A stretch of 64,000 nucleotides of DNA from a virus, in the IMG/VR virus record IMGVR_UViG_3300028559_000033, positions 1 through 64,000 of that record; one strand, given 5' to 3'. This document shows positions 5,483-31,500 of the stretch, one piece after another. Each line of letters begins with the position of its first letter. The stretch's first letter is position 1. The notes under the pieces are model-generated. The model saw nothing but the letters and a program-made list of their open reading frames with translations. It made no database searches and was not told the origin of the DNA. The translations under genes were made by a program, and so were the position numbers.

Positions 5483-5510
5483 TTAAATTATTCTCAAATA
5501 AATGAGAAAA

Positions 5511-12663: not shown

Positions 12664-15600
12664 TTAGTAACGAATAATAGGAATCATTTGTCCTGTATAT
12701 GGACTCACTCCACCTAAAGAACTTGGAGCAATTACAGGATAATATGCGAGTAAATTGGGTAGTTGTCCATTGCGACCATAAGTTCCACGTAAAAGAACTC
12801 GGAGTTCCTGTAACAATATAGCATCAACTCCTTGACAAACTCCATTAATAGGAATATCCCCACCATTACAAATTAGATACCCTGGAGGTGCATATTGAAT
12901 TACTGCAGAAAATCCATAATCTCTTAAGTTTGCTCCTCCAGAAAATGGGCTGTATTCATAAGAGTTTGCCACATATCCAACTGAACCGAGAGGACCACCA
13001 GGAAAGTCCCACTTAACTCCAGATGGTTGTGTACTATCCGCAGTTAAAATGTTTCTATTTGCACCTACAGTTAATCTAATTGCTGAGTTATCAGCAGAAC
13101 CGATAAACAAATCACCTTTAGCATTCCAATCCACATTTGAACTAATTGAACCTTGACCACCTAAAGCAATAATGAAGCAAGAAGTTGCTGCTAATGGAGC
13201 AACTGTGAATCGAATTATATTTGTATTATTCTGTCCAGTCATCACAATTACATAATCAGTTCCTGGTTGCTTAATTACTCCACCTAAAGATACTAATAAG
13301 TTTGCAGGTCCACCAGCAGGAATAAAGTTTACACCATTAATTCTTAAATTGAAATCTGTAGAGCTATTATTAAATCCAGATGAAATATCATCACAAACCA
13401 ATGAATTTCCAACAGGAGCATCACCAGAAACAGAAGCAATGTTTGCAGGAATAAATCCCAATGCAGATGTGACTTCACGAGAGGTTACAAAATCTTGAGT
13501 TCCATCTGACCTGAGGAATTTATACGTCAGAATTGAATTTAACGTTCCACTTTGTGGAGATAGTGTTGTGAATTTCTGAGCAAATATACCACTCGCAGAA
13601 GAAACCGTAGTTATTCCTGTAAGTACAGAATTACCAGAAATATTCAATCTACTTCCAGAAATTTCACCTCCAATAAATGAAGTTCCAGTAATTGCTCCAG
13701 CAGTTAGAGAATTTGAGAACAAATTAAGAGTGGTATTATCAAATGTTGCACGAAGATTAGAACCATTTGTAAATAGATTAAATGCACCTTGACTACGAAG
13801 TGCTAATCCAGAGGCACTTCCAGAACCTAAGGCAGAACCTTGACCCAGATAACCAATAGTTCCTGTTCCAGTAACTGCAAATCTTAAATATGAAACTCCA
13901 TTAGGTCCTTCAAAAGAACCATATGAATCACTTCCTAGAGAAAGAACGGACAACTTACCAAAATTAGAGCCACCAGAACTTGTGGTTCCTAATCCTAAAG
14001 TATTATTGATATATGAACTTCCACCAATACTCAGAGTATTATAAATTGAGGTAGCACCAGAAGGCTCAACTTTTATTTTGGTGTCTATATCAAAGTTTTC
14101 ATTTCCGTATGGAACTATTGTAGTTGGAGAAGCTAATTTCCAAGAATACCCATCACTGGTATCAATTCCCGCATACCATCTACGATTTGCGTTCGCATTT
14201 GTAATGTCCCAAGACAGCACAACATCTCCAGTACCAGCCTGAGTAAGTCTTAGATGCCCACCCTTAGTATTGACGCCTGAACTATTTTGAAACACTGTAA
14301 CGGTTCCTGAGCTTCCTACACGAACTCTTTCAGTGTTTCCAGTTAATAGTCGTATATCTGAACCATTATCAATAGTATTCAGATTTAGAGAACCTGACCC
14401 TCTATGAATTAGCTCGGAACCCACACTTCCAATTCCAGAATTACGAATCAATCTCAATCCAAAATCTGAGAAAACTCGGCTATCATTATTCAAATCAAGA
14501 TATGAGTTTTGATTTGTATTACCCACACCAAGACGAACGATACTCGCATTGGTAACATATGCTGTTGCAACTCCAGAAGACCTTATAGAAGTGATGGCTA
14601 CATTACCACTGGATAGACTTAAATCGGAAGAGAGTGTAAGATTTGAAGATACAAGAGTGTTATTATTATTGGAAGTTAAAACTAGACTTCCAAATTTTGT
14701 ATCAATCGTATTTGAATTTGCCATTCCAACACGAATATTATTGGTCTCAATACTATTACTGAACAGAACAACATTGGGGTCATTTGGAAGTACCTTCTGA
14801 ATAAACACATTATTATTAAATGTAGATACTCCAACTACTTCTAGTTGATTTAATTTTGACGTTCCAGTTTGATGTATTTGACTATAATCTGTACTAACTC
14901 CAGAAAAATATGCAGTTTTATTAATATAAATATCCTCAAAATTAACATCACTCAAAGTGACTGCTTGAGAAAAAGAAACATTTCCAGTAACAACTAGATT
15001 ATCAATTTGAGCAGACCCTACAACATTCAATCTAAATGAATTTGTTGGATTAACTCCAATTCCGAGTTTATCTACACGAAGACTTAATTGATTTGGTTCA
15101 ATACTAATAGGTCCCCAGGGTCTCCAAGTATTACCTTTGTAAACATATCCAATATGATTTACATTAATTGGGTCTAATTCATATGAAACGTATCCAGATT
15201 TTGGATTTGCAAGAGTATTGGTGGTTGGTGTAGATATTCCAACGGTAAATAACTTATCGGTAGAATTCGAAACAGACCTCAAAGAAATATTTCTAGCCAA
15301 TATTCCTTCTGAAGAAAGATTGGTTAGTCTTCTATTGAAACTTGCTGGTCCATAGAACTGAGAACTCTGGTCGTTATTCTCTCCACCCTCTACGGTAATT
15401 CTATTTCGTACTAATATCTCATCATACACTCCAGTCTGACGAGAGGAACTGGTACTATCTACGTCATCTCCAGTATATGTTAGAATTGGAGATTCAACGA
15501 TGGTTTCTTTTCCTGTAGTAGATGAAACTTTTTTACCTCCAGTAAAACTATCTCCAGAATCATTAATACCATCATAAACAATCAAACCACCTTGTTCTTT

Positions 15601-18600
15601 TCTAGTCTGAGCTAAGAATACTTCAGTTTCACTTAATACTCTGTCCTGTCTTTGTGGTAGTGCAGTAGAATAATTTCCTGGTCCCCATCCGACATAATCA
15701 AAAGTATGACCAGAAGCAAATAGGAAGGATGGTCTTCTTAGTTCTGTGGGAATGACTTCTATCTTTTTAACTAGTGTACCTGAAATTGCATCTGTTCTAG
15801 GAGTTCCCAACTGACCACGAATTACATAAATTTGATTAGTATTCGGATATCTGGATACTCTAAGAATTTCATTGTTTATGGATATATAATCACCTTGTAC
15901 AAATGTGGTAAAGTTAGTTACTGTAATCGTAGTTTCTAAATTCGTATTTTTTACTAATGCCGCACCTAAAGTTGTAACTGCTCCAGAATAGAATACATTT
16001 CCTCGTGAAACTAAATTCTCCTCAGACTTTCCAACAGGTAAATCGTTTGAAGAAACTGCATATTTTAATAATGTACCAGAAACTGGAGTTCTTGTGGTTG
16101 TTGCAACTCCAACATTTATGGAGAACGTAGTAGTTCCAACTCCACTACTTACAACAAAATTCTTATTATCATAAAAACTCAAATCTGACCTAGTGAATTT
16201 GAATTTATTTCCAACTACAAATCCGTGTGAAGCTCTAGTGACCACTGTAGCCAGTCCAACACTTATATTGGATAAGGTCATAGAATTTATTCCAACTCCA
16301 GGACCACCAATAACACCTATGGGAAGCTTTCCATTAGTATTTCTTGAATATGTAGAAATACCACTTGGAGAATATAGTACAATAGACTTCTTACTAGGAA
16401 CACTTAGAATTTCGTATACGTCATTAATACTTGCTGGAGTTGCACCTAAGATTTGTAGAGAATCCCCGATATTATTATTGATGTCCGTAATTTCTAGCAC
16501 AGCATTTGAAGGAATACCACCAAGAACTCCAAGTTGTTCTCCTACAGTATGACCAGTTCCTGCATCTACAAGTCTAAATGAACTTGGAATAATTTGACCA
16601 CTTCCGTCAGTTGAAACTTTACAAGTAGGATTTTCTTCGCTAAACTTCAAGTCTAACAGTTCTCTAGAATAGAATGTACTGTTTATTCCATATCCCGCAC
16701 CAACTGTAAGAAAGTTCACACTCTTAATGGAGTTTAACTTGTGTTCTACATCAGTAAAAAGTGTGAGAGTGGTATTACCCAAACCACTTAAGGTAATATT
16801 GGTAATTCCAAATCCAACTTTAGTATTTTGAAGATAATCAATAAGAGATTCTAATGTAATAGAATTCTTTTTATTATCTGTTGCAACTTTACCAATAATG
16901 GATAAATCCGCAAAACTCACTGCAGGATTTGGGTCAGATACTGCATTGTCTCTATCTATTTGTGGATATAAATTGCGAATATCTTGAGAGAAATACTTAT
17001 TAGATAATCCATATCCTACATTGGGAGAAATTCCAACTGAGGATTTGATAATGGTTAAATGATATACTCCGTCCTGTCCTTGAGTTCCAGGAATGTATGA
17101 TTTAATTTCATCTATATCATAAATATAGAATTTTTCTTTATATGATTGACGAGAAACTGAAGGTATACCATCTCTTTGTTGTCTTGTGGTTCTAGAATCT
17201 ACTAAATTTGTAAACGAACCTGGATTTATTTTCAGTCCGTCTAGTCTATATGTGAAAATTCTAGAAGATGGAGTGTCTAGAACAGAATAAGAACCATTGT
17301 AAGTACTTACAATTCCAATTCCAGATGAGTTGTTGGTACTTCTAATATTATTTAATTTAACTATATCTCCGGGAACAAATCTGTGTGGTAATTCTGTAGT
17401 AACCGTAACCAACTGAGAACCGCTCACAGTGCCTGCAGCACTTACTCCCACAATAACTCTATCATTTCTAAGTTCAGTAGAGTTTAAAATTGGACTTGCT
17501 TCAGATACGCTTGCCGTTGTGATTGCTACATTATCACTTTCTTGTATGATATATCCAAGTTGTGGTGGTCTTGCAGAAATGAATTCCTTTGGAATCACAT
17601 AACGAAGTTTATAGATACTATCGTCAATTGAACGAAGCTCAGAAATTCTATTAATGTATGTTACAGGAGTCTCATTTCCAAATGTACTTACATCATAGGT
17701 TAAAATCTTAGTGTATATTTCATTTATTGATGTAGAAGCAGTGTTCAGATACCACTGTAGATTTACAGAATCCCATTGAATTGGGTGTCCAAAATCTCCA
17801 GGAATTTTATCCGTAACTGAACTTACTATTGTAATAACTCCACCACTTCTGGTTAATCCAAGAATTGGAATATTAGATTGCGCATCAGACAAAGACAGTG
17901 CTAATTTAATCTGATTTGAAGATAATGTATTGTCTACTGTATTTGTAATTGCATAATATAAAGTATCGGAAGCAACTCCATCAAAAACTTGTCCAGTATC
18001 ACTGAACAATCTAAGATTTTCTCCAGAAAATAGATTATGATTTTGAGTTAGTGTGATAATATTGCTTGTGGAAATATTATTTAAATTCCCACTTCTAGAG
18101 ATTGTATATTCTTTTCTTGCAACCAGTCCTTCTTGACCATTTGGTGTGGCCATATAGATTGGAGATGAGTATGTAATCTGAGATTCGGTTAAAAATAATT
18201 TAGCTGAAACTCGGGCACCAATTTTATATCCTTCCAGTTTATAATTCGGAAGAACATTAATATCATTATATGAGTAGAGATATAATTTTTTAGCGTCTGC
18301 AACTGATTGAGTTTTAGGAATATCCAAAGATACCCAGGAGATTTGATTCTCAACTGAAGAGAGTTCTTTTGGAGGAATGATGTGAGTGATATATCCAGTA
18401 TCATCTCTACTAAATGCTTCAGCTTTAAATCCAAGGCTACTTAATGCGTTTGCACCAAAGTTGGAATTAGCATTAGTAATTCGAATATCTCCACCACTTT
18501 CAGATACAAATTGCTCTGCATATCCAATAGCAAAAACTGAAACTGCCTGAACGAATGCATTATTCGTGACTTTAATATGAAAGTTTTCGTATTCTGGCTT

Positions 18601-20001
18601 GTATATCGCTCTTGAGTTTTGATATAATGGCCTCAATTTACTGGAACTAGGAAGAGTTATATTGTCGTAATACACACCATTATCATATATGAGATATGCA
18701 TTGTCGTCATTTTGTAATGAAATTCCAGTATATTCCTTTACCACCATAGACCTAAATCCAGTGGCCTTAGAGCCATCGGCAATCATACCACACATTCCTT
18801 TTGTGGATTTTAGAGAACACTCAGCAACATATGGAGATGAGGACGAAACAGTATCACTTTCTACCGATACTGTAGCTATATCAAATGAACTTGGTGCTGG
18901 TAATACTTCTGCAGGTAATATGGTTGTGACGTAAGTGAAGGTGTTAATTCCAACAACTTCTCTTACAGTAAATGTTCCATTATATGCAGTTGTAGATTCA
19001 GTAATTCCACGAATCGTAATCTGAGTATCTACTGAAAAATTATGAGGAATTTCAGATTTGGATTGTAAATCTGCAGTCGTAACGGTAATAATACTATTGT
19101 CTCCAGTACCATTTCCATTACCTGCTCGGATACTAGAAATACCTATTAGATTGTCCTGAAGAGGTCCAACAATACGATATTCTTCTACACTGGGCTCAAA
19201 ATCTAAATTAGAAGGATAATCTTCAATATTTCTACCTGATAGACTATTATAAGCTCTAGTCAGCTTATAATAGTACATTTGTAAATCTGTGAGATTAGTT
19301 TGAGTTGCTCCCAATCTAACTGGATTTACTCCATCTGCAAATACAGCAGTAACTAACTTGTGATGTGAATATGTAGGAACACTTCTACTGTCAGAATAAT
19401 TTTTATATGAGAACTTACTTATATCCGCATCAAAAAATGTAACCTTATTCAGATAACATCCACCAGTAAGATTAAATATACTTGAACTTTCTACAGTGGA
19501 ATCTGTTGGGTCAGGAACATACAGTGGTCTAATTTTTGTTTTACGTGGGTCTATTGCTTTAATAGAAGTTCCTTTGGGTAGAATTAATCCACCATTGACT
19601 GAGTTATACTTGTATAAATCATTGTTTGAATCAAAACTATCGAAATTTGTATTTTCTCCAAACGGGTCTAAGGTAACAACTGTCCAAGTATCAGGCCCAG
19701 TTCTTTTCTTAAATACTGCGGCTCCATTTATATTTTCAACACTAAATCCTGGTCTATTGTCTATATAATGAACCGCAGGAGCTAGGAGAATTGTTGTTCT
19801 ATCGTTTCTATCGTTATTTCTTCCTGGTTGATAACTAAAGACGGCACTTTCTAAAACTGCTCTAGCAATTGAAATAAATGGTCGGTTTGGAGACGTTCCT
19901 CTATTTTCTACACCATCAGTAGCATCAAAATTATTTGGGTCTACATAGAGCTTGGCTCCAGTTGGGTCATTATTCAGATTTGCTAATCTAGAAAGAGCCA
20001 T
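12664..20001 (-). CDS. giant tail fibre with tail-collar C-terminus
   Basis: A 2445-residue late structural protein. The N-terminus (KLYVDPNNFDATDGVENRGT...PFISIARAVLES) looks like the entry of a right-handed beta-helix. The middle is mostly beta, with repeats of T-V-G-T/S and VGIST-type turns, and segments like FRLNVVGSAQIDNLVVTG typical of fibre shafts. The final 90 residues carry a phage tail-collar-like domain: PPGYLICNGGDIPINGV, then YGRNGQLPNL. The domain, the length and the position next to baseplate genes support a long tail fibre or baseplate-attached fibre. It probably binds host surface sugars. A CTAAATA promoter lies 27 nt before the start and an AGGAG ribosome site is visible. 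An inverted repeat (20007-20017/20054-20064) surrounds that promoter. Confidence 0.85.
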   Translation of the reverse strand: MALSRLANLNNDPTGAKLYVDPNNFDATDGVENRGTSPNRPFISIARAVLESAVFSYQPGRNNDRNDRTTILLAPAVHYIDNRPGFSVENINGAAVFKKRTGPDTWTVVTLDPFGENTNFDSFDSNNDLYKYNSVNGGLILPKGTSIKAIDPRKTKIRPLYVPDPTDSTVESSSIFNLTGGCYLNKVTFFDADISKFSYKNYSDSRSVPTYSHHKLVTAVFADGVNPVRLGATQTNLTDLQMYYYKLTRAYNSLSGRNIEDYPSNLDFEPSVEEYRIVGPLQDNLIGISSIRAGNGNGTGDNSIITVTTADLQSKSEIPHNFSVDTQITIRGITESTTAYNGTFTVREVVGINTFTYVTTILPAEVLPAPSSFDIATVSVESDTVSSSSPYVAECSLKSTKGMCGMIADGSKATGFRSMVVKEYTGISLQNDDNAYLIYDNGVYYDNITLPSSSKLRPLYQNSRAIYKPEYENFHIKVTNNAFVQAVSVFAIGYAEQFVSESGGDIRITNANSNFGANALSSLGFKAEAFSRDDTGYITHIIPPKELSSVENQISWVSLDIPKTQSVADAKKLYLYSYNDINVLPNYKLEGYKIGARVSAKLFLTESQITYSSPIYMATPNGQEGLVARKEYTISRSGNLNNISTSNIITLTQNHNLFSGENLRLFSDTGQVFDGVASDTLYYAITNTVDNTLSSNQIKLALSLSDAQSNIPILGLTRSGGVITIVSSVTDKIPGDFGHPIQWDSVNLQWYLNTASTSINEIYTKILTYDVSTFGNETPVTYINRISELRSIDDSIYKLRYVIPKEFISARPPQLGYIIQESDNVAITTASVSEASPILNSTELRNDRVIVGVSAAGTVSGSQLVTVTTELPHRFVPGDIVKLNNIRSTNNSSGIGIVSTYNGSYSVLDTPSSRIFTYRLDGLKINPGSFTNLVDSRTTRQQRDGIPSVSRQSYKEKFYIYDIDEIKSYIPGTQGQDGVYHLTIIKSSVGISPNVGYGLSNKYFSQDIRNLYPQIDRDNAVSDPNPAVSFADLSIIGKVATDNKKNSITLESLIDYLQNTKVGFGITNITLSGLGNTTLTLFTDVEHKLNSIKSVNFLTVGAGYGINSTFYSRELLDLKFSEENPTCKVSTDGSGQIIPSSFRLVDAGTGHTVGEQLGVLGGIPSNAVLEITDINNNIGDSLQILGATPASINDVYEILSVPSKKSIVLYSPSGISTYSRNTNGKLPIGVIGGPGVGINSMTLSNISVGLATVVTRASHGFVVGNKFKFTRSDLSFYDNKNFVVSSGVGTTTFSINVGVATTTRTPVSGTLLKYAVSSNDLPVGKSEENLVSRGNVFYSGAVTTLGAALVKNTNLETTITVTNFTTFVQGDYISINNEILRVSRYPNTNQIYVIRGQLGTPRTDAISGTLVKKIEVIPTELRRPSFLFASGHTFDYVGWGPGNYSTALPQRQDRVLSETEVFLAQTRKEQGGLIVYDGINDSGDSFTGGKKVSSTTGKETIVESPILTYTGDDVDSTSSSRQTGVYDEILVRNRITVEGGENNDQSSQFYGPASFNRRLTNLSSEGILARNISLRSVSNSTDKLFTVGISTPTTNTLANPKSGYVSYELDPINVNHIGYVYKGNTWRPWGPISIEPNQLSLRVDKLGIGVNPTNSFRLNVVGSAQIDNLVVTGNVSFSQAVTLSDVNFEDIYINKTAYFSGVSTDYSQIHQTGTSKLNQLEVVGVSTFNNNVFIQKVLPNDPNVVLFSNSIETNNIRVGMANSNTIDTKFGSLVLTSNNNNTLVSSNLTLSSDLSLSSGNVAITSIRSSGVATAYVTNASIVRLGVGNTNQNSYLDLNNDSRVFSDFGLRLIRNSGIGSVGSELIHRGSGSLNLNTIDNGSDIRLLTGNTERVRVGSSGTVTVFQNSSGVNTKGGHLRLTQAGTGDVVLSWDITNANANRRWYAGIDTSDGYSWKLASPTTIVPYGNENFDIDTKIKVEPSGATSIYNTLSIGGSSYINNTLGLGTTSSGGSNFGKLSVLSLGSDSYGSFEGPNGVSYLRFAVTGTGTIGYLGQGSALGSGSASGLALRSQGAFNLFTNGSNLRATFDNTTLNLFSNSLTAGAITGTSFIGGEISGSRLNISGNSVLTGITTVSSASGIFAQKFTTLSPQSGTLNSILTYKFLRSDGTQDFVTSREVTSALGFIPANIASVSGDAPVGNSLVCDDISSGFNNSSTDFNLRINGVNFIPAGGPANLLVSLGGVIKQPGTDYVIVMTGQNNTNIIRFTVAPLAATSCFIIALGGQGSISSNVDWNAKGDLFIGSADNSAIRLTVGANRNILTADSTQPSGVKWDFPGGPLGSVGYVANSYEYSPFSGGANLRDYGFSAVIQYAPPGYLICNGGDIPINGVCQGVDAILLQELRVLLRGTYGRNGQLPNLLAYYPVIAPSSLGGVSPYTGQMIPIIRY

Positions 20002-20296: not shown

Positions 20297-20947
20297 TTAG
20301 CATACACCATATTTTTTAATGAGTTCTTGGTCTTCCTCTTCTTTTGTGAGAAATCCAGAAATCCTTGCCCAAGTTACAATTGAAAATCTTTCTCCAGATT
20401 TAACAGGATTTACTCCGTGAACATAATTTTGGTCGGATGGAAATGCTACTAATAATCCAGGCTTAGGTTTAACTTGAATATGTAAGTCAGGAAATATAAG
20501 TTCTCCACCTTCAAAATCGTCATTCAAATATAATACAAACGTTAAATCTCTATCGGTAGATTTTCTCCAAATCTTATCTCCAGTAGGAGAAAGCCAGAGA
20601 GACCTTCCATCGATATGAGGGCTATAATGACCACCCACGCCATATCTCAAACATTGTGGAAATTCACTGTCTCTTAATTTAACATCATAAAATGGATTAA
20701 CAATATGAGAAACAATATTTTTAAATAAATCTTCAATTTTGGGAACCAAATCATCAAATGGAATCATTTGAGTATCTCTAACTTTCTTATCTACCTCCCA
20801 AGAAGTTTTCCCAGTAGTATTCGTCTTCTCCGGGTCAAAGACTGATAAATCCTCATACGTAGAAGTTTTACAATGAGTTAACAATTCATCAATTGCTTCT
20901 GAAGTTAATACATCTGATTCAATTAAAATATTAGACAATAAATTCAT
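20297..20947 (-). CDS. 2-oxoglutarate/Fe(II) dioxygenase, prolyl-4-hydroxylase type
   Basis: This 216-residue protein hydroxylates a substrate side chain using Fe(II), O2 and 2-oxoglutarate. The C-terminal half has the family fold: RYGVGGHYSPHIDGRSLW (iron-binding His and Asp of HxD, near residues 108-110), LTFVLYLNDDFEGGELIFPD, then YVHGVNPVKSGERFSIVTW with the distal His and the Arg that binds 2-oxoglutarate. All catalytic residues are present, so it should be active. Such enzymes occur in many cyanophages. It lies between the giant fibre and the first propeller protein, all leftward. I infer that it hydroxylates prolines of virion adhesion proteins; a host target cannot be excluded. Confidence 0.9.
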   Translation of the reverse strand: MNLLSNILIESDVLTSEAIDELLTHCKTSTYEDLSVFDPEKTNTTGKTSWEVDKKVRDTQMIPFDDLVPKIEDLFKNIVSHIVNPFYDVKLRDSEFPQCLRYGVGGHYSPHIDGRSLWLSPTGDKIWRKSTDRDLTFVLYLNDDFEGGELIFPDLHIQVKPKPGLLVAFPSDQNYVHGVNPVKSGERFSIVTWARISGFLTKEEEDQELIKKYGVC

Positions 20948-20974: not shown

Positions 20975-22951
20975 TTAGGAATTTCTACCATTTGTTAAAC
21001 CTCTAGAAAACCAATAATTTACGGTACTATTTCCTCTTCTACTTGTAGTGGCTACGTCATTTGAATAATCTAATCTATCTGTAGAACTGATGATATTATC
21101 TCCCGCCGTTCTTCCTCCCATAGAGAAGTATCCAAAGTTAGAATTTCCAGTATTTGCAACTCGAAATGTATCTAAATTAATCCGAACACTGGCTACATTG
21201 GTATCATTAGAGTAATCAATTCTTTCGATAAATGTTATTTGTATTGGAGATACTCCTCTAGCGGCTCCGATATATCCAAAATTATTGTTCCCGACAGCAG
21301 TAGACTCAGATTTAGCAAAAATTAACTTACCCTTATTTAAAGTAGTTGAAGTATCATTTGAAAATTGGAATCTATCAATATTTGAACGAGCATTTCCTCC
21401 ACCAATATCACCACCGCCAGAATAATATGCAAAGTTTGAGTTTTGAGAAATTGCATAATGATTTGAGCCTACAACTCGGTTTCCCCGAACTACAGTGGTT
21501 ACACTATCATCAGAATAGCTTAATCTACTAATACTCGTATACTGATTAAAATATGCAAAAGAACTTGATGTGCAACCTCTTGTATAGTACGAAGCAGAAC
21601 TTAATGGCCCTCTATCTATTGAACCTGAAATGTCATTTGCATAATCTACTCTGTCTACGGTAGTAATAATTGCGGAAGGTATGTCAACTCTTCCTCCCGC
21701 AATATATCCAAAATTTGAATTTCCTGTTGTTTGATGCTGCCATCTATTCTGAGAAAGAGGTCCTCTATTAGTAGAAACTACTGAATCATTTGAAAATTGT
21801 ATACGAGTATTTGTAGAAAATATAGTAGGTCCATTCGTTCCGCCCACAAAATATCCAAAACTTCCTAAAGCTCTTTTTTGTGGAACGGTTGAAGCATTAG
21901 ATAAATTATAGTTTATATTATTTTGAATTTGTGTAGGTAGAGTTGTGATATTGGAAGTGTTTGGAGCACCACCAAAGTATGAAGATGAATGTGCAACTCT
22001 CCCACTCGTAGATGAAGTAGGAAAAACTGAGCGTGTGGGCGTTACAATAGTATCATTTGAATAATCTATTCTTAATATGTTACTAGTACTAATACTTTGA
22101 AAGCTAACATCACCAAGCCAACCGAAATTTGAATTTCCTTCTCCACTATATTGTGCGAAAAGTTTAGATATAAATCCTCTTGATGAAAATCCAGAAGTAT
22201 CATTTGAAAAATCATTACGAGAAATTTGAGTAAAACTAATATAAGTAATCCAACCATATATAGAATTCCCCACACCTCCACCAACATCAGTACGAGATAG
22301 AGTTCCTCTAAAAGATACTAAATTGGTGTCATTTGCATAGGAACTTCTATTAAAAGTGGTAGTCCCCAAGGAAGTTGCAGTAAATTTACCATAATTACGA
22401 CAATAATTGATATCTCCACAAGAAAGTCCTTGATACGAGGGTATATTTAAATTTCCTCTAGATATTGCTGCATTGCTATCATTAGCATAATTAATTCTAG
22501 AGATTGATGAAGATGCCATTGCAGCTGGTATGTCAGATCCACCCAAAACATATCCAAAATTCGAATTTCCAGCGGAAGTAGCCCATCTACCAATACTATG
22601 AGCAAGTGAACCACGAATTGTAGCTATGGTTATATCTGACTTGTAGTCTATACGATATACACTTGAAATTAGTTTACCAGCACAATAGTATCCAAAATTT
22701 AAATTGCTACACGCAGTTCCATCTCTAACATTAGCAGGAATTCCTGAACGTTGGGAAACTCCTCGAGTATCATTAGAGTGGTCAAATCTAAATATTGTAG
22801 ATATTCTCGAAAAAGTTCGAAGTACATATCCACCAGAAAAATATCCATACTCACTATAAGATTCTCTAGTTCTAGATGAAATTCTATTATCTAAGGAACG
22901 ACTTCTATGTTGCCCTAGCGAAAATATTCCTTGTGTATTAATTTCCGCCAT
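20975..22951 (-). CDS. Kelch-like beta-propeller adhesin, two propellers (A)
   Basis: This 658-residue protein is built from 12 repeats of about 45-50 residues. The unit is [FY]G[YW]xxGG...(I/V)xRxDYSNDT...RGxLS.........GNSN, a Kelch-like blade ending in NSN and beginning with FGY. Six blades form residues 31-320; a linker with GGAP and PQKRALGSFGYF then starts a second set of six. Six is a normal propeller blade number. The first 30 residues (IFSLGQHRSRSLDN...RTRESYSEYGYFSGG) are shared with the two paralogues and probably attach the protein to the tail. No signal peptide is present. A late promoter lies 23 nt upstream. It is likely a receptor-binding or decoration protein; the propeller fold is inferred from the repeat pattern. 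Confidence 0.8.
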   Translation of the reverse strand: MAEINTQGIFSLGQHRSRSLDNRISSRTRESYSEYGYFSGGYVLRTFSRISTIFRFDHSNDTRGVSQRSGIPANVRDGTACSNLNFGYYCAGKLISSVYRIDYKSDITIATIRGSLAHSIGRWATSAGNSNFGYVLGGSDIPAAMASSSISRINYANDSNAAISRGNLNIPSYQGLSCGDINYCRNYGKFTATSLGTTTFNRSSYANDTNLVSFRGTLSRTDVGGGVGNSIYGWITYISFTQISRNDFSNDTSGFSSRGFISKLFAQYSGEGNSNFGWLGDVSFQSISTSNILRIDYSNDTIVTPTRSVFPTSSTSGRVAHSSSYFGGAPNTSNITTLPTQIQNNINYNLSNASTVPQKRALGSFGYFVGGTNGPTIFSTNTRIQFSNDSVVSTNRGPLSQNRWQHQTTGNSNFGYIAGGRVDIPSAIITTVDRVDYANDISGSIDRGPLSSASYYTRGCTSSSFAYFNQYTSISRLSYSDDSVTTVVRGNRVVGSNHYAISQNSNFAYYSGGGDIGGGNARSNIDRFQFSNDTSTTLNKGKLIFAKSESTAVGNNNFGYIGAARGVSPIQITFIERIDYSNDTNVASVRINLDTFRVANTGNSNFGYFSMGGRTAGDNIISSTDRLDYSNDVATTSRRGNSTVNYWFSRGLTNGRNS

Positions 22952-22973
22952 AAAATTATTGATACTTTTTTAG

Positions 22974-22980
22974 TATTTAG
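22974..22980 (-). promoter_or_regulatory. late-type promoter CTAAATA
   Basis: Minus strand CCTAAATA, 23 nt before propeller protein A. It overlaps the stop of the sulfotransferase gene. Confidence 0.5.
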
Positions 22981-23825
22981 GCCTTTAAGTAATGATTGAA
23001 CTTTATATCTCTCCAGAATTCCAAATTATTATACTTATTCAAAACATAATCACTCAATACCTCTTCTGGAGCGTTACTTATTTTTTCAATTTTTCTTCTA
23101 ACAGAGTGCATTCCCGCAAGATTATAATAAAAGATATCATCCTCAGGAAATTCATTCTCTAAATTATTCAATGAATACTCATATCTTTCAAGATTTAAAA
23201 AATCATGAATTTCATTTAAAATTTCAACTGGAGTTTTCACCAAGTCATCATACTCATAGACATATAAGCAATTCTGCTCACCAGTCTTATATGCTCTAGA
23301 GAGAGCCCATAGAGATTCATCTACAATTCCAATTCCAGGACTCATTAAGTAATCACACCGATTATCATCCGTTAATTCAAGATTTTTTTCTTTTAAATAC
23401 TGGTCTATAAAAGAGACTGAATCTGAATTTTTATGAATCAGAGTAATAAAACTGGTAAGAATATCCAAGACTCCTCTCACTGGGCAAATGATTTTAATAT
23501 CTTCAGTTACATATTGACGAAATCTTTCAATATTATTTGGAATTGCCCGATTATGGTCCAAAATAATAGACTTACCATTTTGATTCATTATAGGCTCATA
23601 AAAATTATTCACAATTTGAGAAAGAACATTATAACAACTTTCTGGTCTTGGATAAGACTTCATCATTTCACTATGATTATCAAAATAACTCTGAGTGTAA
23701 TAGAGTAATTCAACTGATGGTGAAATTGGTCCTGCGTAAATTTCTGAATGAGTATTTAAAATTGTTCTGGTTAATGTGGACCCACTTCTTGGAAGTCCAG
23801 CCATAAATCTATAAGTATATTTCAT
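22977..23825 (-). CDS. sulfotransferase
   Basis: This 282-residue protein begins MKYTYRFMAGLPRSGSTLTR. PRSGST is the 5'-phosphosulfate loop that binds the donor PAPS in sulfotransferases. Later LDHNRAIPNN and a region ICPVRGVLDILTSFI match the 3'-phosphate-binding PVR..D...S pattern. Overall length fits the family. It would move sulfate to a hydroxyl or amine of a sugar or tyrosine. It is sandwiched between propeller proteins A and B in the same operon, so I infer that virion adhesins, or glycans on them, are the substrate. An alternative is modification of a host surface polysaccharide. Confidence 0.85.
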   Translation of the reverse strand: MKYTYRFMAGLPRSGSTLTRTILNTHSEIYAGPISPSVELLYYTQSYFDNHSEMMKSYPRPESCYNVLSQIVNNFYEPIMNQNGKSIILDHNRAIPNNIERFRQYVTEDIKIICPVRGVLDILTSFITLIHKNSDSVSFIDQYLKEKNLELTDDNRCDYLMSPGIGIVDESLWALSRAYKTGEQNCLYVYEYDDLVKTPVEILNEIHDFLNLERYEYSLNNLENEFPEDDIFYYNLAGMHSVRRKIEKISNAPEEVLSDYVLNKYNNLEFWRDIKFNHYLKA

Positions 23826-23844
23826 AATTTAAAATTTTCAATTA

Positions 23845-25848
23845 TTATAGCATAGAATTGGTAGTTGCAGCGTGACTATTTACACCAAAACTCAATGGTC
23901 CTCTTATGGATGGTGAATTTGTATCATTCGCATAATCAATTCTTTCAACTCTAGTCAAAAGTCCATCAAGAACTCCTCTTCCTCCAGAAAAATATCCGAA
24001 ATTAGAAGTTCCTGTTGCAGCTGACGCATATGTACTTCCACTCAATGTTCCTCTAGTGATAGAAATTGTAGTATCATTTGAATAATCTATACGGTCAATA
24101 GTTGAATGATTACTCCCAGAAGTACCACCTGCAACATAACCAAAATTTAAATTCCCAGAAGCTCCAGACAATCTTCTCGCTAAAGTTATATTTCCACGAA
24201 CTGATGCCGTTGCTAAATCATTTGAATAATTGATTCTATCAACTATAGAATAATACGAAGCAGAGTTTCCTCCAACAGTGTATCCAAAATTTAAAATTCC
24301 TAATCCACACGCACTATTACGCAAAATCGAGCCATTTCCTCTTTGAGTAGAGTTTAAATTATCATTAGAGTAATTATATCTTTCTATAGTTGTAGTATTA
24401 GTTCCACTCATTATATACGAAAACTGATTAGAACCAGTTGCAATACAATTATGACGAATAGTCACTAACTTAGCTCTATCTACCGAACCTAAAGTATCAT
24501 TTGAATATTGAATTCTGTCGATATTTGATATTAGTGTAGCTGGCTCCGCGAATCCACCATAATGATACCCAAAATTTTTATTTGAAGAAGAAGCTAAATT
24601 TCTTCGCCCAAGTGCAATTGACGACCGAATGGGTATGTTTAATGTATCTGTGGAGTATTGTAATCTTGATATACAACTAGTGTTTGTAACACTTGGAGTA
24701 TATGCCGTAAGTCCTCCTCCAAAGTATCCATAAGAAAGTAAAGCATTTTTTCTGACGCTATATGATGTGGTATCTGAAGGCGACTTCATTCTCTGATTAT
24801 CAAAGAAACTTTGCCTTCCTGCTCCAGAATATTGTGAGACTGACGCACCACCAAATGAACCTTTAGTTATATTAGCTTGAGTGGAATTTCTATTTTGAAA
24901 TAATGGCCCACGAATACTCATAATATTAGTATCATTTGAGTAATCCAATCTCTCTACGATTGAATTGTCTACACCACCATTAATTTGAACCCCACCAGAA
25001 TAATATCCAAAACTAGAAGTACCTGAAGCAGACAAATATCCACGAGCAGCACTCAACGAACCTCTTATAACTGGAAACACTAAATCATTTACATATGTAA
25101 TTCTACCCGTGGTTGATATTATAGCAAATGGGGGAATATACTGTCCACCCGAAACGTATCCAAAATTCTCATTTCCTGTAGTTGCATTCAATCTACAGGC
25201 AAATAAGAATGAACCACGTGAACTAACTGTAGCTAAATCATTGCTATAATTGAATCTTCTTATAGTACTGGTTGCGAATCCACCACCACCACTAAGGCTT
25301 GCAGTATCTCCACCAATACTCCAAGCATAGTTTATATTTTGCCCACTAGTACCACGAATTCCCCAGACTAAATCATTTCCACGAATGAGAGTAGGAACAG
25401 TGTCATCTGAATAATTAATACGACTGATTTTTGATGTAGCTCCAGCAATAAACCACCCATAATCTTTAGTTCCTCCTACGTTTCCACCACGCCTGTTTAA
25501 AATAGAATCCACACATCTGAATTGAACCGAAGCAGTATCGTTTAAATAATTTAATCTATATATTCTACTGAACCCATAATCATCCGAATGATATGCAAAA
25601 TTGGAATTTCCAACCACAGAGGTATATATAGAAGGTGCAAGTATAAATCCCCTGTTAGAATTAGTTGTTGTATCAGTACTATAATCCTTTCTTTCAATAT
25701 TGGTTGGAAAGAAATTCGCCAGCCGATTCCGACCAGAAAATAAATACCCATACTCACTATAAGATTCTCTAGTTCTAGATGAAATATCTAAACTTAAATT
25801 TTTATTATAATGAGTACTTAGGGAGAAAATCCCAGCATTATTAGGCAT
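23845..25848 (-). CDS. Kelch-like beta-propeller adhesin, two propellers (B)
   Basis: This 667-residue paralogue of the protein at 20975 has the same N-terminal anchor (GIFSLSTHYNKNLSLDISSR then TRESYSEYGYLFSG), then 12 Kelch-like blades in two groups of six. The groups are separated by GGASVSQYSG...RKNALLSYGYFGGG. Blades end in GNSN or a close variant and restart FGY. Many blades hold RIDYSNDT and RG(P/S)L. Sequence between blades is variable, as expected on a ligand-facing surface. An AATAAATA late promoter lies 26 nt upstream. It is probably a virion surface adhesin, and the modification enzymes around it could act on it. Confidence 0.8.
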   Translation of the reverse strand: MPNNAGIFSLSTHYNKNLSLDISSRTRESYSEYGYLFSGRNRLANFFPTNIERKDYSTDTTTNSNRGFILAPSIYTSVVGNSNFAYHSDDYGFSRIYRLNYLNDTASVQFRCVDSILNRRGGNVGGTKDYGWFIAGATSKISRINYSDDTVPTLIRGNDLVWGIRGTSGQNINYAWSIGGDTASLSGGGGFATSTIRRFNYSNDLATVSSRGSFLFACRLNATTGNENFGYVSGGQYIPPFAIISTTGRITYVNDLVFPVIRGSLSAARGYLSASGTSSFGYYSGGVQINGGVDNSIVERLDYSNDTNIMSIRGPLFQNRNSTQANITKGSFGGASVSQYSGAGRQSFFDNQRMKSPSDTTSYSVRKNALLSYGYFGGGLTAYTPSVTNTSCISRLQYSTDTLNIPIRSSIALGRRNLASSSNKNFGYHYGGFAEPATLISNIDRIQYSNDTLGSVDRAKLVTIRHNCIATGSNQFSYIMSGTNTTTIERYNYSNDNLNSTQRGNGSILRNSACGLGILNFGYTVGGNSASYYSIVDRINYSNDLATASVRGNITLARRLSGASGNLNFGYVAGGTSGSNHSTIDRIDYSNDTTISITRGTLSGSTYASAATGTSNFGYFSGGRGVLDGLLTRVERIDYANDTNSPSIRGPLSFGVNSHAATTNSML

Positions 25849-25873
25849 TATTCCCCATAAGAACTATAATAAG

Positions 25874-25881
25874 TATTTATT
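25874..25881 (-). promoter_or_regulatory. T4-like late promoter AATAAATA
   Basis: Minus strand AATAAATA, 26 nt before propeller protein B. Confidence 0.6.
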
Positions 25882-25887
25882 TCCTTA

Positions 25888-26820
25888 TCATTCTTTCACA
25901 ACCTCAGTGGAATCTTCTAGTTGTGGAACTTCTTCAACGGAACCCGAGAGTGAAAGTTCACGAAATGCTTTCATTCGTTCTTGAATAAGTTGCGCTCTTT
26001 CCTCAGTAGGTAGAAAATTACCCGCACCCAGATTTACTCCCATTACATCTTCATAACCTTGAATTACATTCTTCTCTAGTTCACTTACGAACTTCATACG
26101 ACCTTCTGTGGAAGTTAATGCTTCTCCTAGAGATGGGAATCCATTGTTGAATTGATTTCTCTTATCCACCAAAGCAGGAGCAGTAGACCTACGAACACTG
26201 TGAATGTTACCAATACTACATCCAAGTTGAGAACCAAGAATTTCGTCTAACATCTGTTCACTAAATCTACCCTTCCAGTAATTCTCTTCATTCGCAAGGA
26301 ATTGTTCTCTAGATACGGGATTTCCTCCATTACGTTCAGTAAGTTCCGCAAGCATTTTATCCAAATGTTCAATTTGATAAAGCCTATCTCTCACTTCTAG
26401 TTCACTAGAGCGTAGAAAATGTTCCAATTGCATTTGGTCCAAATCATACCAACACAACTTCTTTCCACCGCCTCCCATTGCGCTATATTCCCATTGAATA
26501 GGTTCAGAATGGCTCTGGTCTTTCCACTTATATTCAAATTCTCTGACCTTTTCTTGCATTTCAAGAAGTTTACTCATCAATCCTTCCGCCATCTGACGAC
26601 GAGATTTGAGAACACTTTCATATGCACTTTCTAAAGTGTAGGTTTCTAGAAGTGCAAACTTTTCTAATTGGAAATTAGTTCTACCTTGAGCAAGCTCCTT
26701 ATCAATCTCGTGGTATCTATAAACATTTTCAAATGCTTTTTTGAGATATTCACCAGATTTATCTCCAACTGCTTCTTCAACTGTTCTAAATCCTAAACTA
26801 TTTTCAGGTAATATGGACAT
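25888..26820 (-). CDS. coiled-coil hypothetical protein in adhesin region
   Basis: This 310-residue, mostly helical, charged protein contains long amphipathic helices (ESAYESVLKSRRQMAEGLMS; RSSELEVRDRLYQIEHLDKM) that suggest a coiled coil. It has no transmembrane or signal segment and no enzymatic motif I can see. It lies between propeller gene B and a glycosyltransferase, in the same direction. It could be a structural adaptor, an assembly chaperone for the large fibres, or an enzyme of unknown family. I do not recognise it. Confidence 0.65.
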   Translation of the reverse strand: MSILPENSLGFRTVEEAVGDKSGEYLKKAFENVYRYHEIDKELAQGRTNFQLEKFALLETYTLESAYESVLKSRRQMAEGLMSKLLEMQEKVREFEYKWKDQSHSEPIQWEYSAMGGGGKKLCWYDLDQMQLEHFLRSSELEVRDRLYQIEHLDKMLAELTERNGGNPVSREQFLANEENYWKGRFSEQMLDEILGSQLGCSIGNIHSVRRSTAPALVDKRNQFNNGFPSLGEALTSTEGRMKFVSELEKNVIQGYEDVMGVNLGAGNFLPTEERAQLIQERMKAFRELSLSGSVEEVPQLEDSTEVVKE

Positions 26821-26851
26821 AAAAATTCAACTCCAATAAAATTCAAACGAT

Positions 26852-27904
26852 TTAACTACCGTATTTAGCAAAGTTAAAATAACTTATACTGGGTTTAGTC
26901 ACACTTGGTGATGTAAATACTACATCTTCTGTATAAGTCTGACTCAATCTACTTGATGACTTTAATATTTTATTTCCAAATCCTACGCCAGAGGATTTAT
27001 TTTGCAATTTATGAATTAAGTTTTCCCAAGTTTTTGCGATATTCTTCCAATCATAAGATTTTTCAATCCAATCACTACAAGACTGAGATACTTGATTATA
27101 GATTTCTTTTTCATTATCAAAATAATCCAAAGCCATACAAGTTGCCTCTACAAAGTTGGAGATAAACTTCTCTGTAACTTCATAACCTTTTGGTGTTCGG
27201 GTTCCTTCAATTGGAACTACTGTCGCTAAATTTGGACCTGCAATTTCCTCTAAAGCTCCAATATCAGTAATAATGGGATATGCTCCACATCTCATTGCTT
27301 CACACATTGAAACTCCAAAAGTTTCTTCCCAAATACAAGGACTTATAAAAAATGCAGACTCTTGATAATGAAAAATCAATAATTCTCTATCTATTGCTCG
27401 GGAATATTTCACATTTGGAAGTGCTTTGAGTTTTTCGTATAATTCAATATATGAATCAATTTGTGGACCATATAAAGACATAGATGAAAATATTCTAAAG
27501 ATTGCGTCTGGATGTCTTTGATGAACTAATGGAATAATCTGAGCAAGAATGGGAAGTGCTTTATAAGGAATAGAGGTATATATGAGTTGCTTTTGTTTCT
27601 GATTTGAATATGTGTAAATTGAATCCACTCCATTTGGAATGACTGTAATTTTATTTTCTGGAACTTTATGATATTTTTGAAGAGTTTCCTTTGCCCAATA
27701 TGATGGAGTAACAATATGAGTTATATCATCGTGAGTAAAATTATGATAAACCTGCTGGTCATATGCGTGATGAGCCCAGAGAATTTTAATTGAAGAGGAT
27801 TTACTTTTAAGTTTCTGTGGTAAATGTGAAACTAAAACATTCTCTGGAAATTGATAATATTGTGAAAGATACGTATACGCAGTCTCAGTAGCACCAGAAA
27901 TCAT
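26852..27904 (-). CDS. glycosyltransferase, GT-B fold (family 4 type)
   Basis: This 350-residue protein transfers a sugar from a nucleotide donor. Residues about 80-125 (THIVTPSYWAKETLQKYH...ITVIPNGVD) and about 190-225 (CIWEETFGVSMCEAMRCGAY) give the E-x7-E motif and the PNGVD signature of GT4-like retaining enzymes. It has no transmembrane segment and probably works in the host cytosol. It is flanked by the coiled-coil gene and propeller protein C, in the same operon. I infer that it glycosylates a virion protein of this cassette. The other option is making a host surface sugar; no polysaccharide export gene is present to support that. Confidence 0.85.
   Translation of the reverse strand: MISGATETAYTYLSQYYQFPENVLVSHLPQKLKSKSSSIKILWAHHAYDQQVYHNFTHDDITHIVTPSYWAKETLQKYHKVPENKITVIPNGVDSIYTYSNQKQKQLIYTSIPYKALPILAQIIPLVHQRHPDAIFRIFSSMSLYGPQIDSYIELYEKLKALPNVKYSRAIDRELLIFHYQESAFFISPCIWEETFGVSMCEAMRCGAYPIITDIGALEEIAGPNLATVVPIEGTRTPKGYEVTEKFISNFVEATCMALDYFDNEKEIYNQVSQSCSDWIEKSYDWKNIAKTWENLIHKLQNKSSGVGFGNKILKSSSRLSQTYTEDVVFTSPSVTKPSISYFNFAKYGS
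26861..26867 (-). promoter_or_regulatory. late-type promoter CTAAATA
   Basis: Minus strand CTAAATA inside the end of the glycosyltransferase gene, 41 nt before the coiled-coil gene. Confidence 0.4.
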
Positions 27905-27933
27905 TGTGAATTATAATATAAGTATAGTATATA

Positions 27934-30843
27934 TTAGGAATTTCTTGCATTTGTGGTTGCAACAAAATCAGAACCAGATAATAGTATTGGGCCTCTAATT
28001 GATGCCAATAAAGTATCATTAGAATAATTTATACGGTCGGTTCTTGTACTAACTGAAGCAAACCATCCAAAATTGGAATTTCCAGTCGCTACCAATGCAT
28101 TAATACTTTGTGTTAATGGACCTCTTGGTAATAATATTTGTAGGTCATTGGAATAATCTATACGTTCCAATGAAGATAGCGTACTTACTCCATTATTTCC
28201 ACCACCAAAATACCCAAAATTGGAGTTTCCTGCGGCCCCAAATGTTGTAATAAAGTTAAGATTTCTTACAGACAATAAATTTGCTCTTATATTTGGGACA
28301 ACCCCATCATTAGAATAACTCAATCTTTCTATCATCGTAGTTCTAACGTTGCTGACATTTAAAACCCCTCCCCCATAATACCCAAAATTTATATTTCCAA
28401 CAGGGCTCATTACACATTTACTTTGTATTAAATTTGTGCGGAGAGTGCCGATAGAAGTATCATTAGAAAAAGTTAGTCTAGCTATATTTGTTCTAGTAGT
28501 TCCAAGAGCAATACCTCCAGCAAAATACCCAAAGTTAGTTCCACATAATCCAGACCTAAATCTAAAAGAAGACTCCAATGGACCCCTAGTATTAACTATA
28601 TTGTCATTAGTGTAATTTAATCTCTCTACAGTAGATACTCCCGATGTGTCTGAAAGATACCCACCACCAAAGTAGCCATAATTTCTATTTCCAATTGCAC
28701 TAATATTCTGTCTAACCAACGATAAGAAACTTCTGGGTGATGCAGCAACCAAATCATTTGAGAAATCCAATCTTTGTTGCCCAGAATTTGATGTAGTACC
28801 AACAAAGTATCCAAAACTACCTAAAACTCTTTTTTGAGGAACGATTAATGCATTATTCGGGTCTCTATTCAACATAGAATTAATATATGTCGGAATAGGA
28901 CTGGTAGTGGTACTCGGGGCACCTCCATAAGATTGAGACGATGTAGATGCAATATATTCCCGAGTTACAGTAAGAGGCCCACGTATTGTAGAAATCTGAG
29001 TATCAGAAGAGTAGTCAATCTTATCTATCGTACTATATCTTCCAATAGAATTAAATCCTCCAGCAAAATATCCAGAATTTGAATTTCCAGTAGCTCCCAT
29101 TGCGGACCTATCATTAGAAATTGTGCCTACTCTCAATAAACTTGCAGTATCATTTGCATAATTTATTTTTTCAGTGAGTAAAATATTTGTGGGACTTGTG
29201 GTTGTACCATTTACAACATAGCCAAAGTTTTCATTTCCAGTAGCACTGGATGAAAATCTTTGAGTAGAAACATTTCGGACTTGATTTACACTGGTATCAT
29301 TTGAGTAATCTAATCTACTTAAAATCGTAGTAGATGCCGAAGCTCCACCAGTAAAGTATCCATAATTTATATTACTCAATCCAATCAAATCCTGTCTTCC
29401 CACATTCAATGGACCACGAGTAATTGCAGCAACTAAATCACTGGAGTATGAGACTCTATCAATAGAGGAGATTCCATTAGACCCAGCAAAATACCCAAAG
29501 TTTGAAGTTCCAGTCGCAGCAAATCTTGTTCGGACAATAGAGAGTGGTCCTCTTAAACTTGTAGTATTGGTATCTGTGAGATAATCTAAACGAGAGATAC
29601 TTGAAACAGTTGGAGAACCTCCTCCCGCAAACCAACCAAAACTTGAATTTCCAGTGGAAGCCATTGAATTTAATGCTGAGAATAGCGTTCCACGTAGAGC
29701 AGCATTTTCAGTATCATTTGCATAATCAATTCTACCCATATGAGAATAAATAGTAGAAATAGAGCCATCTATACCTCCACCAAAATATCCATATGGAGCG
29801 GTAGAAATCCAAGATTTTCCAAGATATGATTGGGGAGCACCACCAAATGAGTATGCTCCAACAGCAGCAAATCTACCCCAAGAAGAAGAAACCTTATTAA
29901 TATCTCGATATACGGGAGTATTTGTATCATTTGAATAATCTATTCTATTTGATTGCGTATTATTATTAGATTGATATACTGAATTATGAGATAAAGCATA
30001 ATTTGAATTTCCACTAGAAGCTACCACTCCACCAGCAGCATATGGTAATGGCCCACGAATTTGTGGAGTAACTAAATCATTGGAGTAATTTAAACGAGCG
30101 ACTGTGGACAAGGATGAATAACTCACTTGTTGACCACTAATTATCCAACCAAAATTTGAGTTCCCAGCTCCTTGTGCAAACCGATGTATCGTAGGTAGAA
30201 AACTTCGGACTCTAGCAACATTCATATCATTCGCATATGTAATTCTAGATATTTTTGAGATGCTGATAGGAGATGAAATTCCTCCTCCTCCTGTTACCCA
30301 ACCGAAATCTGAAGTACTATATGAACCTTGAAGTGCTATAGCTTGCTCTAATGGTCCTCTCATTGTTGGAGAAACTACATCATTTGCGTAATTGAGTCTC
30401 TCAACATTTGATATTAATTGCGGATTTTCATTCCATCCTCCAGAAAAATATCCGAAATTTATATTTCCAAAACCTGATCTACCTCTGCGAAGAAAAGTTG
30501 GAATCAAAGAAACAGACCTAAATTGTGAAGCAATTAAATCATTTGAATAAGATATTCTTTGGAATGTAGTTTCAGGGTTTATATCTAAATATGCAAAATT
30601 TAAATTTGAACTGATTGCGCCAAGCCGCCAAGCAAGTGTACCTCTCCTAATTGTTCGGGTATCATTTGAAAAGTCAATTCGAAATGATGAAGACACGCCA
30701 ATAGTAGGAACACCATTGATGGCTCCTCCCACAAGATATTGATAGTTTCTATATGCTTCTCTGCTAGTATTCACCCAAAATCCTTCCTTCTGAAGTTCAT
30801 AAACCTCACTTAAACTAAAAATATTAGTTCTTAGGTCAGACAT
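27934..30843 (-). CDS. Kelch-like beta-propeller adhesin, three propellers (C)
   Basis: This 969-residue protein is the largest of three paralogues. Its N-terminus (NIFSLSEVYELQKEGFWVNT) is a diverged version of the shared anchor. It then has 18 Kelch-like blades in three sets of six. Sets end with GGAPQSY or GGAPSTT and restart with a linker (STAPYGYFGGG; VPQKRVLGSFGYFVG). The extra propeller shows that these proteins grow by whole six-blade units rather than single blades. Its 3' end is 30 bp from the start of the glycosyltransferase gene. It is likely an adhesin on the tail; biochemical evidence is absent. Confidence 0.8.
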   Translation of the reverse strand: MSDLRTNIFSLSEVYELQKEGFWVNTSREAYRNYQYLVGGAINGVPTIGVSSSFRIDFSNDTRTIRRGTLAWRLGAISSNLNFAYLDINPETTFQRISYSNDLIASQFRSVSLIPTFLRRGRSGFGNINFGYFSGGWNENPQLISNVERLNYANDVVSPTMRGPLEQAIALQGSYSTSDFGWVTGGGGISSPISISKISRITYANDMNVARVRSFLPTIHRFAQGAGNSNFGWIISGQQVSYSSLSTVARLNYSNDLVTPQIRGPLPYAAGGVVASSGNSNYALSHNSVYQSNNNTQSNRIDYSNDTNTPVYRDINKVSSSWGRFAAVGAYSFGGAPQSYLGKSWISTAPYGYFGGGIDGSISTIYSHMGRIDYANDTENAALRGTLFSALNSMASTGNSSFGWFAGGGSPTVSSISRLDYLTDTNTTSLRGPLSIVRTRFAATGTSNFGYFAGSNGISSIDRVSYSSDLVAAITRGPLNVGRQDLIGLSNINYGYFTGGASASTTILSRLDYSNDTSVNQVRNVSTQRFSSSATGNENFGYVVNGTTTSPTNILLTEKINYANDTASLLRVGTISNDRSAMGATGNSNSGYFAGGFNSIGRYSTIDKIDYSSDTQISTIRGPLTVTREYIASTSSQSYGGAPSTTTSPIPTYINSMLNRDPNNALIVPQKRVLGSFGYFVGTTSNSGQQRLDFSNDLVAASPRSFLSLVRQNISAIGNRNYGYFGGGYLSDTSGVSTVERLNYTNDNIVNTRGPLESSFRFRSGLCGTNFGYFAGGIALGTTRTNIARLTFSNDTSIGTLRTNLIQSKCVMSPVGNINFGYYGGGVLNVSNVRTTMIERLSYSNDGVVPNIRANLLSVRNLNFITTFGAAGNSNFGYFGGGNNGVSTLSSLERIDYSNDLQILLPRGPLTQSINALVATGNSNFGWFASVSTRTDRINYSNDTLLASIRGPILLSGSDFVATTNARNS

Positions 30844-30846: not shown

Positions 30847-31500
30847 TTATTCTCCAAAAATATGTGAACCAGTATGTGAAAGAGAAATACTCTTGTCTAA
30901 CCAACAATCATAACCTAAACTACGAGCCCGAAAGAAGAAACTAATATCTTCGGCCATATAATTTGGTCCATATTTATATTCTAGAAAGTAGTGATATGAA
31001 TTATGATATTCGGCTTCAGTGGGCCTCACATTACTATCTTCAAGAGATGGATAATATTTTAATTCTGGATAAGCACTCGCAATTGTATAAAATACTCTGC
31101 GATGAATCATCACGAATCCCATTCCATTATGCTCAATTTTAATTAAATCTCCTTGAGTTTCTTCTGGCTCTAAAATTTTATAATTATATCTTAGAGGTAT
31201 AGACTTCATTGGATATGGAGCGGCAATAACATCTTTATCGTGCCTTAAGAGTTGAAGAACAGATGTTGGGTCAAATCCAATATCACTATCTAGAAAGAAT
31301 AGATATTCGTGCTCAGTATTATTTAAAAAGAAATTTGCAATTTTACTTCTTCCCTGAGAAATCAAAGATGAATTTGCAACTGTGAATAGTCCGTGAGGCA
31401 CACCTTCTCTTACTAATAATTTTCCCAGATTAAACAGACTCATTGTAGTCTTTTCACAAACTAATCCACCGTAGCAAGGTAAAGCAATAAAAATACTCAT
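30847..31500 (-). CDS. glycosyltransferase, GT-A type
   Basis: This 217-residue protein begins MSIFIALPCYGGLVCEKTTM and has a Rossmann-like half with FLNNTEHEYLFFLDSDIGFD; the DSD is a DxD metal/nucleotide-sugar motif. The region DVIAAPYPMKS and later GMGFVMIHRRVFY are typical of small GT-A enzymes. The length (about 220) fits single-domain phage GTs. Located at the head of the propeller cassette, it would give a second, different sugar transferase alongside the GT-B one. Target assigned by neighbourhood only. Confidence 0.8.
   Translation of the reverse strand: MSIFIALPCYGGLVCEKTTMSLFNLGKLLVREGVPHGLFTVANSSLISQGRSKIANFFLNNTEHEYLFFLDSDIGFDPTSVLQLLRHDKDVIAAPYPMKSIPLRYNYKILEPEETQGDLIKIEHNGMGFVMIHRRVFYTIASAYPELKYYPSLEDSNVRPTEAEYHNSYHYFLEYKYGPNYMAEDISFFFRARSLGYDCWLDKSISLSHTGSHIFGE

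Follow-up and report, generated by a model that had tools for sequence, protein, structure and literature searches.

Three proteins encoded in the 64,000-nucleotide viral sequence analysed here (positions 1 to 64,000 of IMG/VR record IMGVR_UViG_3300028559_000033, hereafter the window) are, by homology, strings of two, two and three Kelch-type six-bladed β-propellers. Their genes are interleaved with genes for glycosyltransferases, a sulfotransferase and an oxygenase (Table 1). We propose that the three proteins, P0001, P0002 and P0003, are probably tail-associated multivalent receptor-binding proteins of a T4-like marine phage, a reading to which we give a probability of about 0.6.

Table 1. 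The propeller cassette and the tail fibre genes around it, in window positions and in the direction of transcription.
Feature	Position	Strand	Details
Tail fibre gene upstream of cassette	38396..43573	minus	phrog_17885 tail fiber, E=6e-274
Probable GT-A type glycosyltransferase GT_A217	30847..31500	minus	217 aa; DSD motif; phrog_34859 glycosyltransferase, E=4e-4
Propeller protein P0003	27934..30843	minus	969 aa; 18 blades, predicted 3 propellers; phrog_19111, E=7.9e-78
P0003 propeller 1	29851..30744	minus	aa 34-331
P0003 linker 1	29794..29850	minus	holds GGAP
P0003 propeller 2	28933..29793	minus	aa 351-637; A2 profile aligns KLHL12 in this part
P0003 linker 2	28816..28932	minus	holds GGAP
P0003 propeller 3	27937..28815	minus	aa 677-969
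GT-B glycosyltransferase	26852..27904	minus	350 aa; PF00534, E=2.4e-11; fused to ORF310 domain in many relatives
ORF310, conserved helical 310-aa protein, cassette marker	25888..26820	minus	152 loci; A3 alignment
ATAAATA late-promoter-like motif	25874..25880	minus	26 nt upstream of P0002
Propeller protein P0002	23845..25848	minus	667 aa; 12 blades, predicted 2 propellers (aa 33-331, 373-667)
P0002 inter-propeller linker	24733..24855	minus	GGAS
Sulfotransferase	22977..23825	minus	282 aa; PF13469, E=6.4e-12; PAPS-loop-like motif RSGST; phrog_27463
Propeller protein P0001	20975..22951	minus	658 aa; 12 blades, predicted 2 propellers (aa 35-325, 365-658)
P0001 inter-propeller linker	21860..21976	minus	GGAP
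2OG-Fe(II) oxygenase	20297..20947	minus	216 aa; PF13640, E=1.6e-19; HxD motif present
Tail fibre gene downstream of cassette	12664..20001	minus	phrog_529 tail fiber, E=0

The original prediction had counted 12, 12 and 18 blades by eye. We set blade boundaries by the motif FGYxxGG...RxDYSND...RGPL...GNSN and, to avoid circularity, built a blade HMM from two of the proteins and scanned the held-out third. This reproduced the counts of 12 in P0001, 12 in P0002 and 18 in P0003, with 16–58 bits for each blade; the top blade score in shuffled controls (200 per protein) was 9.5 bits. A thirteenth match in P0001, at −1.3 bits, corresponds to its linker. A broader HMM made later detected 17 of the 18 blades of P0003 and missed one weak blade. 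The GGAP linker that had been described after blades 6 and 12 is present in three of the four linkers, the one in P0002 reading GGAS. We also found the common N-terminus (IFSL...) and the strongly differing blade loops as described. Interspersed with the propeller genes in this interval are those for the sulfotransferase, ORF310 and a glycosyltransferase, which had gone unmentioned. In HMM searches, phrog_19111, a family of unannotated function, matched P0002 (3.1e-41) as well as P0003, and no match to it was found for P0001.

Pfam gave no curated match to the three proteins. Kelch_1 (PF01344) reached a subthreshold 11 bits in P0003, against a cut-off of 20.1, and nothing in P0001 or P0002; we do not assign Kelch_1 membership and name the proteins Kelch-type by profile. 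A single protein used as query matched the designed Kelch propeller SAKe6FR (E=0.0018), and a profile of 18-blade relatives (A2) matched KLHL12 (5e-5 to 7e-5). With a profile of 17 single propellers (A4), the matches to solved structures were in register and stronger for both (SAKe6FR, 1.8e-11; KLHL12, 1.2e-7), and KEAP1 followed at ~1e-3. The A4 match to KLHL12 spans most of the ring, and Kelch-type propellers were the only structures with convincing E-values. From these matches we conclude that P0001, P0002 and P0003 are Kelch-type six-bladed propellers by homology, with a predicted closed ring. Structure prediction, which had been suggested as a check, was run on full-length P0003 with an 11-sequence alignment and yielded no usable model (AlphaFold, pLDDT 33.7) in which separate propellers could be resolved, so the fold assignment rests on the profiles. 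The modelling of repetitive propellers is a known difficulty (PMC9218822).

The relatives support whole six-bladed units far more strongly than the window alone. Among complete propeller ORFs, 298 of 338 have 6, 12, 18, 24, 30 or 36 blades, and after clustering at 70% identity exactly these totals are found in 179 of 205 non-redundant propeller proteins (87%). The median blade-to-blade distance is 66 aa after each sixth blade versus 48 aa elsewhere, and distances of at least 62 aa account for 59% at propeller boundaries versus 0.2% within propellers. Propellers are encoded as at least five separate single-propeller genes in L062 and L067–L069 and as one 36-blade protein in L021 and L033. Many of the totals that are not multiples of six come from an internal gap one blade long or from frameshift-broken ORFs; the remaining exceptions, L129 (5+6) and L092 (6+4), are either real or assembly-collapsed, and the proteins of single-cell phage AG-345-L05 are too divergent for a reliable blade count.

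Growth by complete propellers, as originally proposed, agrees with totals quantised in sixes and describes the copying itself only in part. For propeller pairs within one protein, the in-register alignment was the best one in 120 of 360 cases versus 60 expected by chance; in the window, where the register test is weak, shift 0 was best in 8 of 21 pairs. Blades are slightly more similar inside one propeller than between propellers. Taken together, the register figures and the likeness of blades within a propeller suggest that growth appears to be partly whole-propeller copying and partly blade-level exchange, with the rings kept intact.

The cassette is transcribed in the order GT_A217, P0003, GT-B, ORF310, P0002, sulfotransferase, P0001, 2OG-Fe(II) oxygenase, and its position between the phrog_17885 and phrog_529 genes places the propeller genes inside a tail-fibre module. 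Catalytic motifs of its enzymes (HxD, PAPS loop, DxD) are present. GT_A217 also matches phrog_1574, whose function is unannotated, and its Anp1 match is below the Pfam cut-off. ORF310 has neither a Pfam nor a PHROG match, and its AlphaFold model (pLDDT 53.7) is of moderate confidence only in two long helices and a hairpin. The ATAAATA motif before P0002 may be a late-promoter-like element, a weak assignment by analogy with T4 late promoters: 6 of the 12 minus-strand matches in the window, counted by hand, lie 24–38 nt upstream of a gene start, and the motif has no overall enrichment. Elsewhere in the window, an array of 22 tRNA genes occupies positions 47–6073 of the minus strand.

In ~50,700 phage records, relatives of ORF310 were found only in Synechococcus phage S-SKS1 and in AG-345-L05; another single-cell phage, AG-345-O18, gave a weak match, to the propellers. 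S-SKS1, whose propeller genes are annotated 'hypothetical', is the sole cultured relative found, and it alone matched a cyanophage repeat (RGVFGGG...IDYITIATTGN). ORF310 found no relative in GTDB genomes. ORF310 queries against IMG/VR added ~145 further loci. Propellers are held by 149 of the 152 ORF310 loci, and among the 58 with long flanks the cassette is well conserved: all 58 have propellers, the 2OG oxygenase is present in 55, the sulfotransferase and GT-B in 53 each, and GT-A in 52. A DUF6445 protein lies in the cassette of 34 of these 58 loci (L014, L018, L023 and others), often beside the sulfotransferase. psbA is carried by the records of S-SKS1, AG-345-L05, L019 and L020, which makes the viruses of these four records, to which the claim is limited, most likely cyanophages.

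In 56 loci GT-B and ORF310 are fused in a single open frame, the strongest indication that ORF310 may work with the glycosyltransferase. An FkbM methyltransferase domain is inserted between the two in L019, L020, L025 and one more locus; the 801-aa open frame at L019:8396–10798 comprises glycosyltransferase, FkbM methyltransferase and ORF310, and L020 and L025 have the like. No GT-B was found near ORF310 in S-SKS1-like loci such as L082, L086, L087 and L145, which weighs against the proposed reading.

We compared contigs at the gene directly downstream of ORF310; the best-match version of this comparison is biased by short contigs that have no true counterpart. Where ORF310 is 95–98% and the oxygenase 97% identical, the downstream propeller protein has a median identity of 66%, and in 62 pairs ORF310 is at least 97%, the oxygenase at least 90% and the propeller less than 60% identical. 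The propellers thus diverge much faster than the neighbouring genes, as a description and not a test, because contig pairs are not independent. Within the blade, the B-C loop (columns 8–14, bar one proline) and the D-A loop (38–43) have high column entropy, and the A-B and C-D turns have low entropy. In Kelch proteins, KEAP1 for example, the ligand face is made up of the B-C and D-A loops. Loop variability is a general tendency of repeat proteins and does not on its own prove binding.

Two loci, L061 and L080, are without these propellers and have other content in the propeller slot. At L061:2660–3586, the 16-residue leader of the propeller proteins is followed by a different repeat (IFGYG...TNLVSNTGVVATDTTGVGTAR), apparently in six copies. 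At L080:1705–3775, two Gly_rich_2 (PF21722) adhesins, which have an unrelated glycine-rich domain but share their leader with the L073 propeller, occupy the slot. Exchanging heads behind a constant leader is how tail adhesins behave. A protein at L011:7863–8891 starts with VNDGGTWKEV-type repeats, ends in a six-bladed propeller and adjoins collagen-like fibre genes.

From these features of the locus and its relatives, we infer virion location and receptor binding as follows. Each protein would dock on the tail-fibre apparatus through its short N-terminal leader, behind which linkers would connect two or three whole six-bladed Kelch-type β-propellers. The variable B-C and D-A loops, on the one face of each propeller that is the classical Kelch ligand face, would give multivalent binding of host surface structures. 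A ring that is not closed would fail to fold, which would keep blade totals at multiples of six. GT-B with ORF310, GT-A, the sulfotransferase and the 2OG-Fe(II) oxygenase may glycosylate, sulfate and hydroxylate the propellers while the virion is assembled or earlier; ORF310 would serve the glycosyltransferase as the part that recognises the substrate or as a chaperone. The modular receptor binding of the original prediction gains from the loops, divergence and head swapping seen among the relatives, and its decoration idea is strengthened because decorating enzymes are encoded in the same cluster. A more far-reaching version, which we put forward tentatively and at slightly less than even odds, is a dedicated phage decorated-propeller system, in which ORF310 recognises propellers on behalf of the glycosyltransferase fused to it or encoded beside it. 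Serial Kelch rings would then carry hydroxylated, methylated and sulfated glycans, and these rings would serve as interchangeable multivalent receptor-binding heads.

Across loci, none of the modification sites looked for in the blades proved strictly conserved. Many blades have no NDT-like sequon, which is missing entirely from L153, and in many sulfotransferase-bearing loci strand C has F in place of Y as its aromatic. NDT as a general N-glycosylation sequon and DY as a general tyrosine-sulfation site were both rejected; neither the sequon nor the tyrosine is conserved across the sulfotransferase-bearing loci. Because a universal acceptor site was not found, either Ser/Thr modification or action of the enzymes on host glycans is possible. 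The latter would leave the propellers as virion adhesins and assign the sulfotransferase, glycosyltransferases and oxygenase to the host surface, for example against superinfection or re-adsorption. Precedents exist in the well-known O-antigen-modifying genes of phages and prophages (PMC11990801) and in cyanophage glycosyltransferase clusters interpreted as polysaccharide-modifying (PMC7824862), and the finding of no universal site in the blades also favours this reading. However, in nearly every locus the enzyme genes alternate singly with propeller genes, GT-B is fused to the ORF310 domain, which occurs almost only beside propellers, and the cassette showed neither a flippase nor a polymerase; we consider action on host glycans rather unlikely.

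Other readings concern the propellers themselves. Decoration of the capsid or tail sheath, as whiskers or head fibres that aid diffusion or particle adhesion and not host receptor binding, would suit proteins of up to 36 blades, which would form long chains, and the passage on the Kelch protein CBB_552 places it in the virion of a whiskered phage (PMC5259590). The tail-fibre and baseplate gene setting, the fast divergence and the swap with a glycine-rich head nevertheless fit tail adhesins better, and we regard this decoration as unlikely. An intracellular host-binding or scaffold role outside the virion is improbable: cellular Kelch propellers are mostly protein–protein interaction modules, but the genes lie in the tail-fibre module, a late-promoter-like motif precedes P0002, and Gly_rich_2 heads are exchanged behind the same leader. 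With no usable structure prediction, one could still think of an open solenoid or other repeat fold whose six-fold count has another cause. The in-register profile match to solved Kelch propellers, the share of clusters at multiples of six and the longer spacer at every sixth blade make this very improbable.

Among the closest known systems to the tail-associated propeller proteins proposed here is S-SKS1 (SWZG_00001/00291, 00289 and 00287; phrog_19111). It has the blade type of the window proteins and the window's cassette order (propeller, ORF310, propeller, sulfotransferase, propeller, 2OG oxygenase), but no GT-B between the propeller genes, and its blades are more alike (median identity ~0.7 versus 0.42). 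Its cassette adjoins tail-fibre and baseplate genes, and the other end of the record runs on into a propeller gene and into tail-fibre/baseplate genes. The S-SKS1 propeller ORFs are interrupted by frameshifts or record ends; at ~201100–206350 of NC_020851.1, propeller and 2OG oxygenase ORFs are frameshift-broken and partly unannotated, which could be repeat sequencing error.

CBB_552 of phage vB_PcaM_CBB is a Kelch-domain protein that, in the passage describing it, was detected in the virion by mass spectrometry (PMC5259590), a finding that also counts in favour of the tail-adhesin reading. It resembles the window proteins, whose place in the virion is probable, in being a Kelch-type propeller in a phage; it differs, by description, in that InterPro Kelch models recognise it, and that passage mentions neither serial propellers nor a decorating cassette (PMC5259590). 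KLHL12 and KEAP1, whose in-register match to the phage propellers covers most of the ring, are eukaryotic and have a single propeller per protein; the phage proteins do not reach the cut-off of Pfam Kelch. Multi-blade propellers of recent amplification, WRAP among them, also form more than one propeller from one chain, with amplification ongoing; these are WD40-like and other types, have totals such as 14, 15 and 47 that are not strict sixes, and are not phage adhesins (PMC9218822).

The original prediction knew of no described phage system of this design. In open-access literature excluding preprints, we found no paper on such serial propellers, the cassette or the S-SKS1 propeller genes, so that the cassette is undescribed in what was searched; on the other side stand CBB_552, a virion Kelch propeller by the passage cited above, and the S-SKS1 homologues, which carry no assigned role. 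What is new is probably not the fold, a known one in a probable phage adhesin, but the unusual architecture and the undescribed conserved enzyme set.

Little is known about host choice in marine T4-like phages, since most tail-tip proteins lack a recognisable domain. More than 140 other viral contigs carry such a gene cluster, with propeller blades nearly always in sixes, which suggests that host-binding proteins of this undescribed kind are widespread. The family, in ~150 viral contigs with one cultured member, offers a definable fold, a variable face and a conserved enzyme set. Its near-strict multiples of six are a natural experiment in how repeat proteins grow while closed rings are preserved, and with S-SKS1 on Synechococcus WH7803, both receptor binding and the modification of virion proteins can be tested directly.
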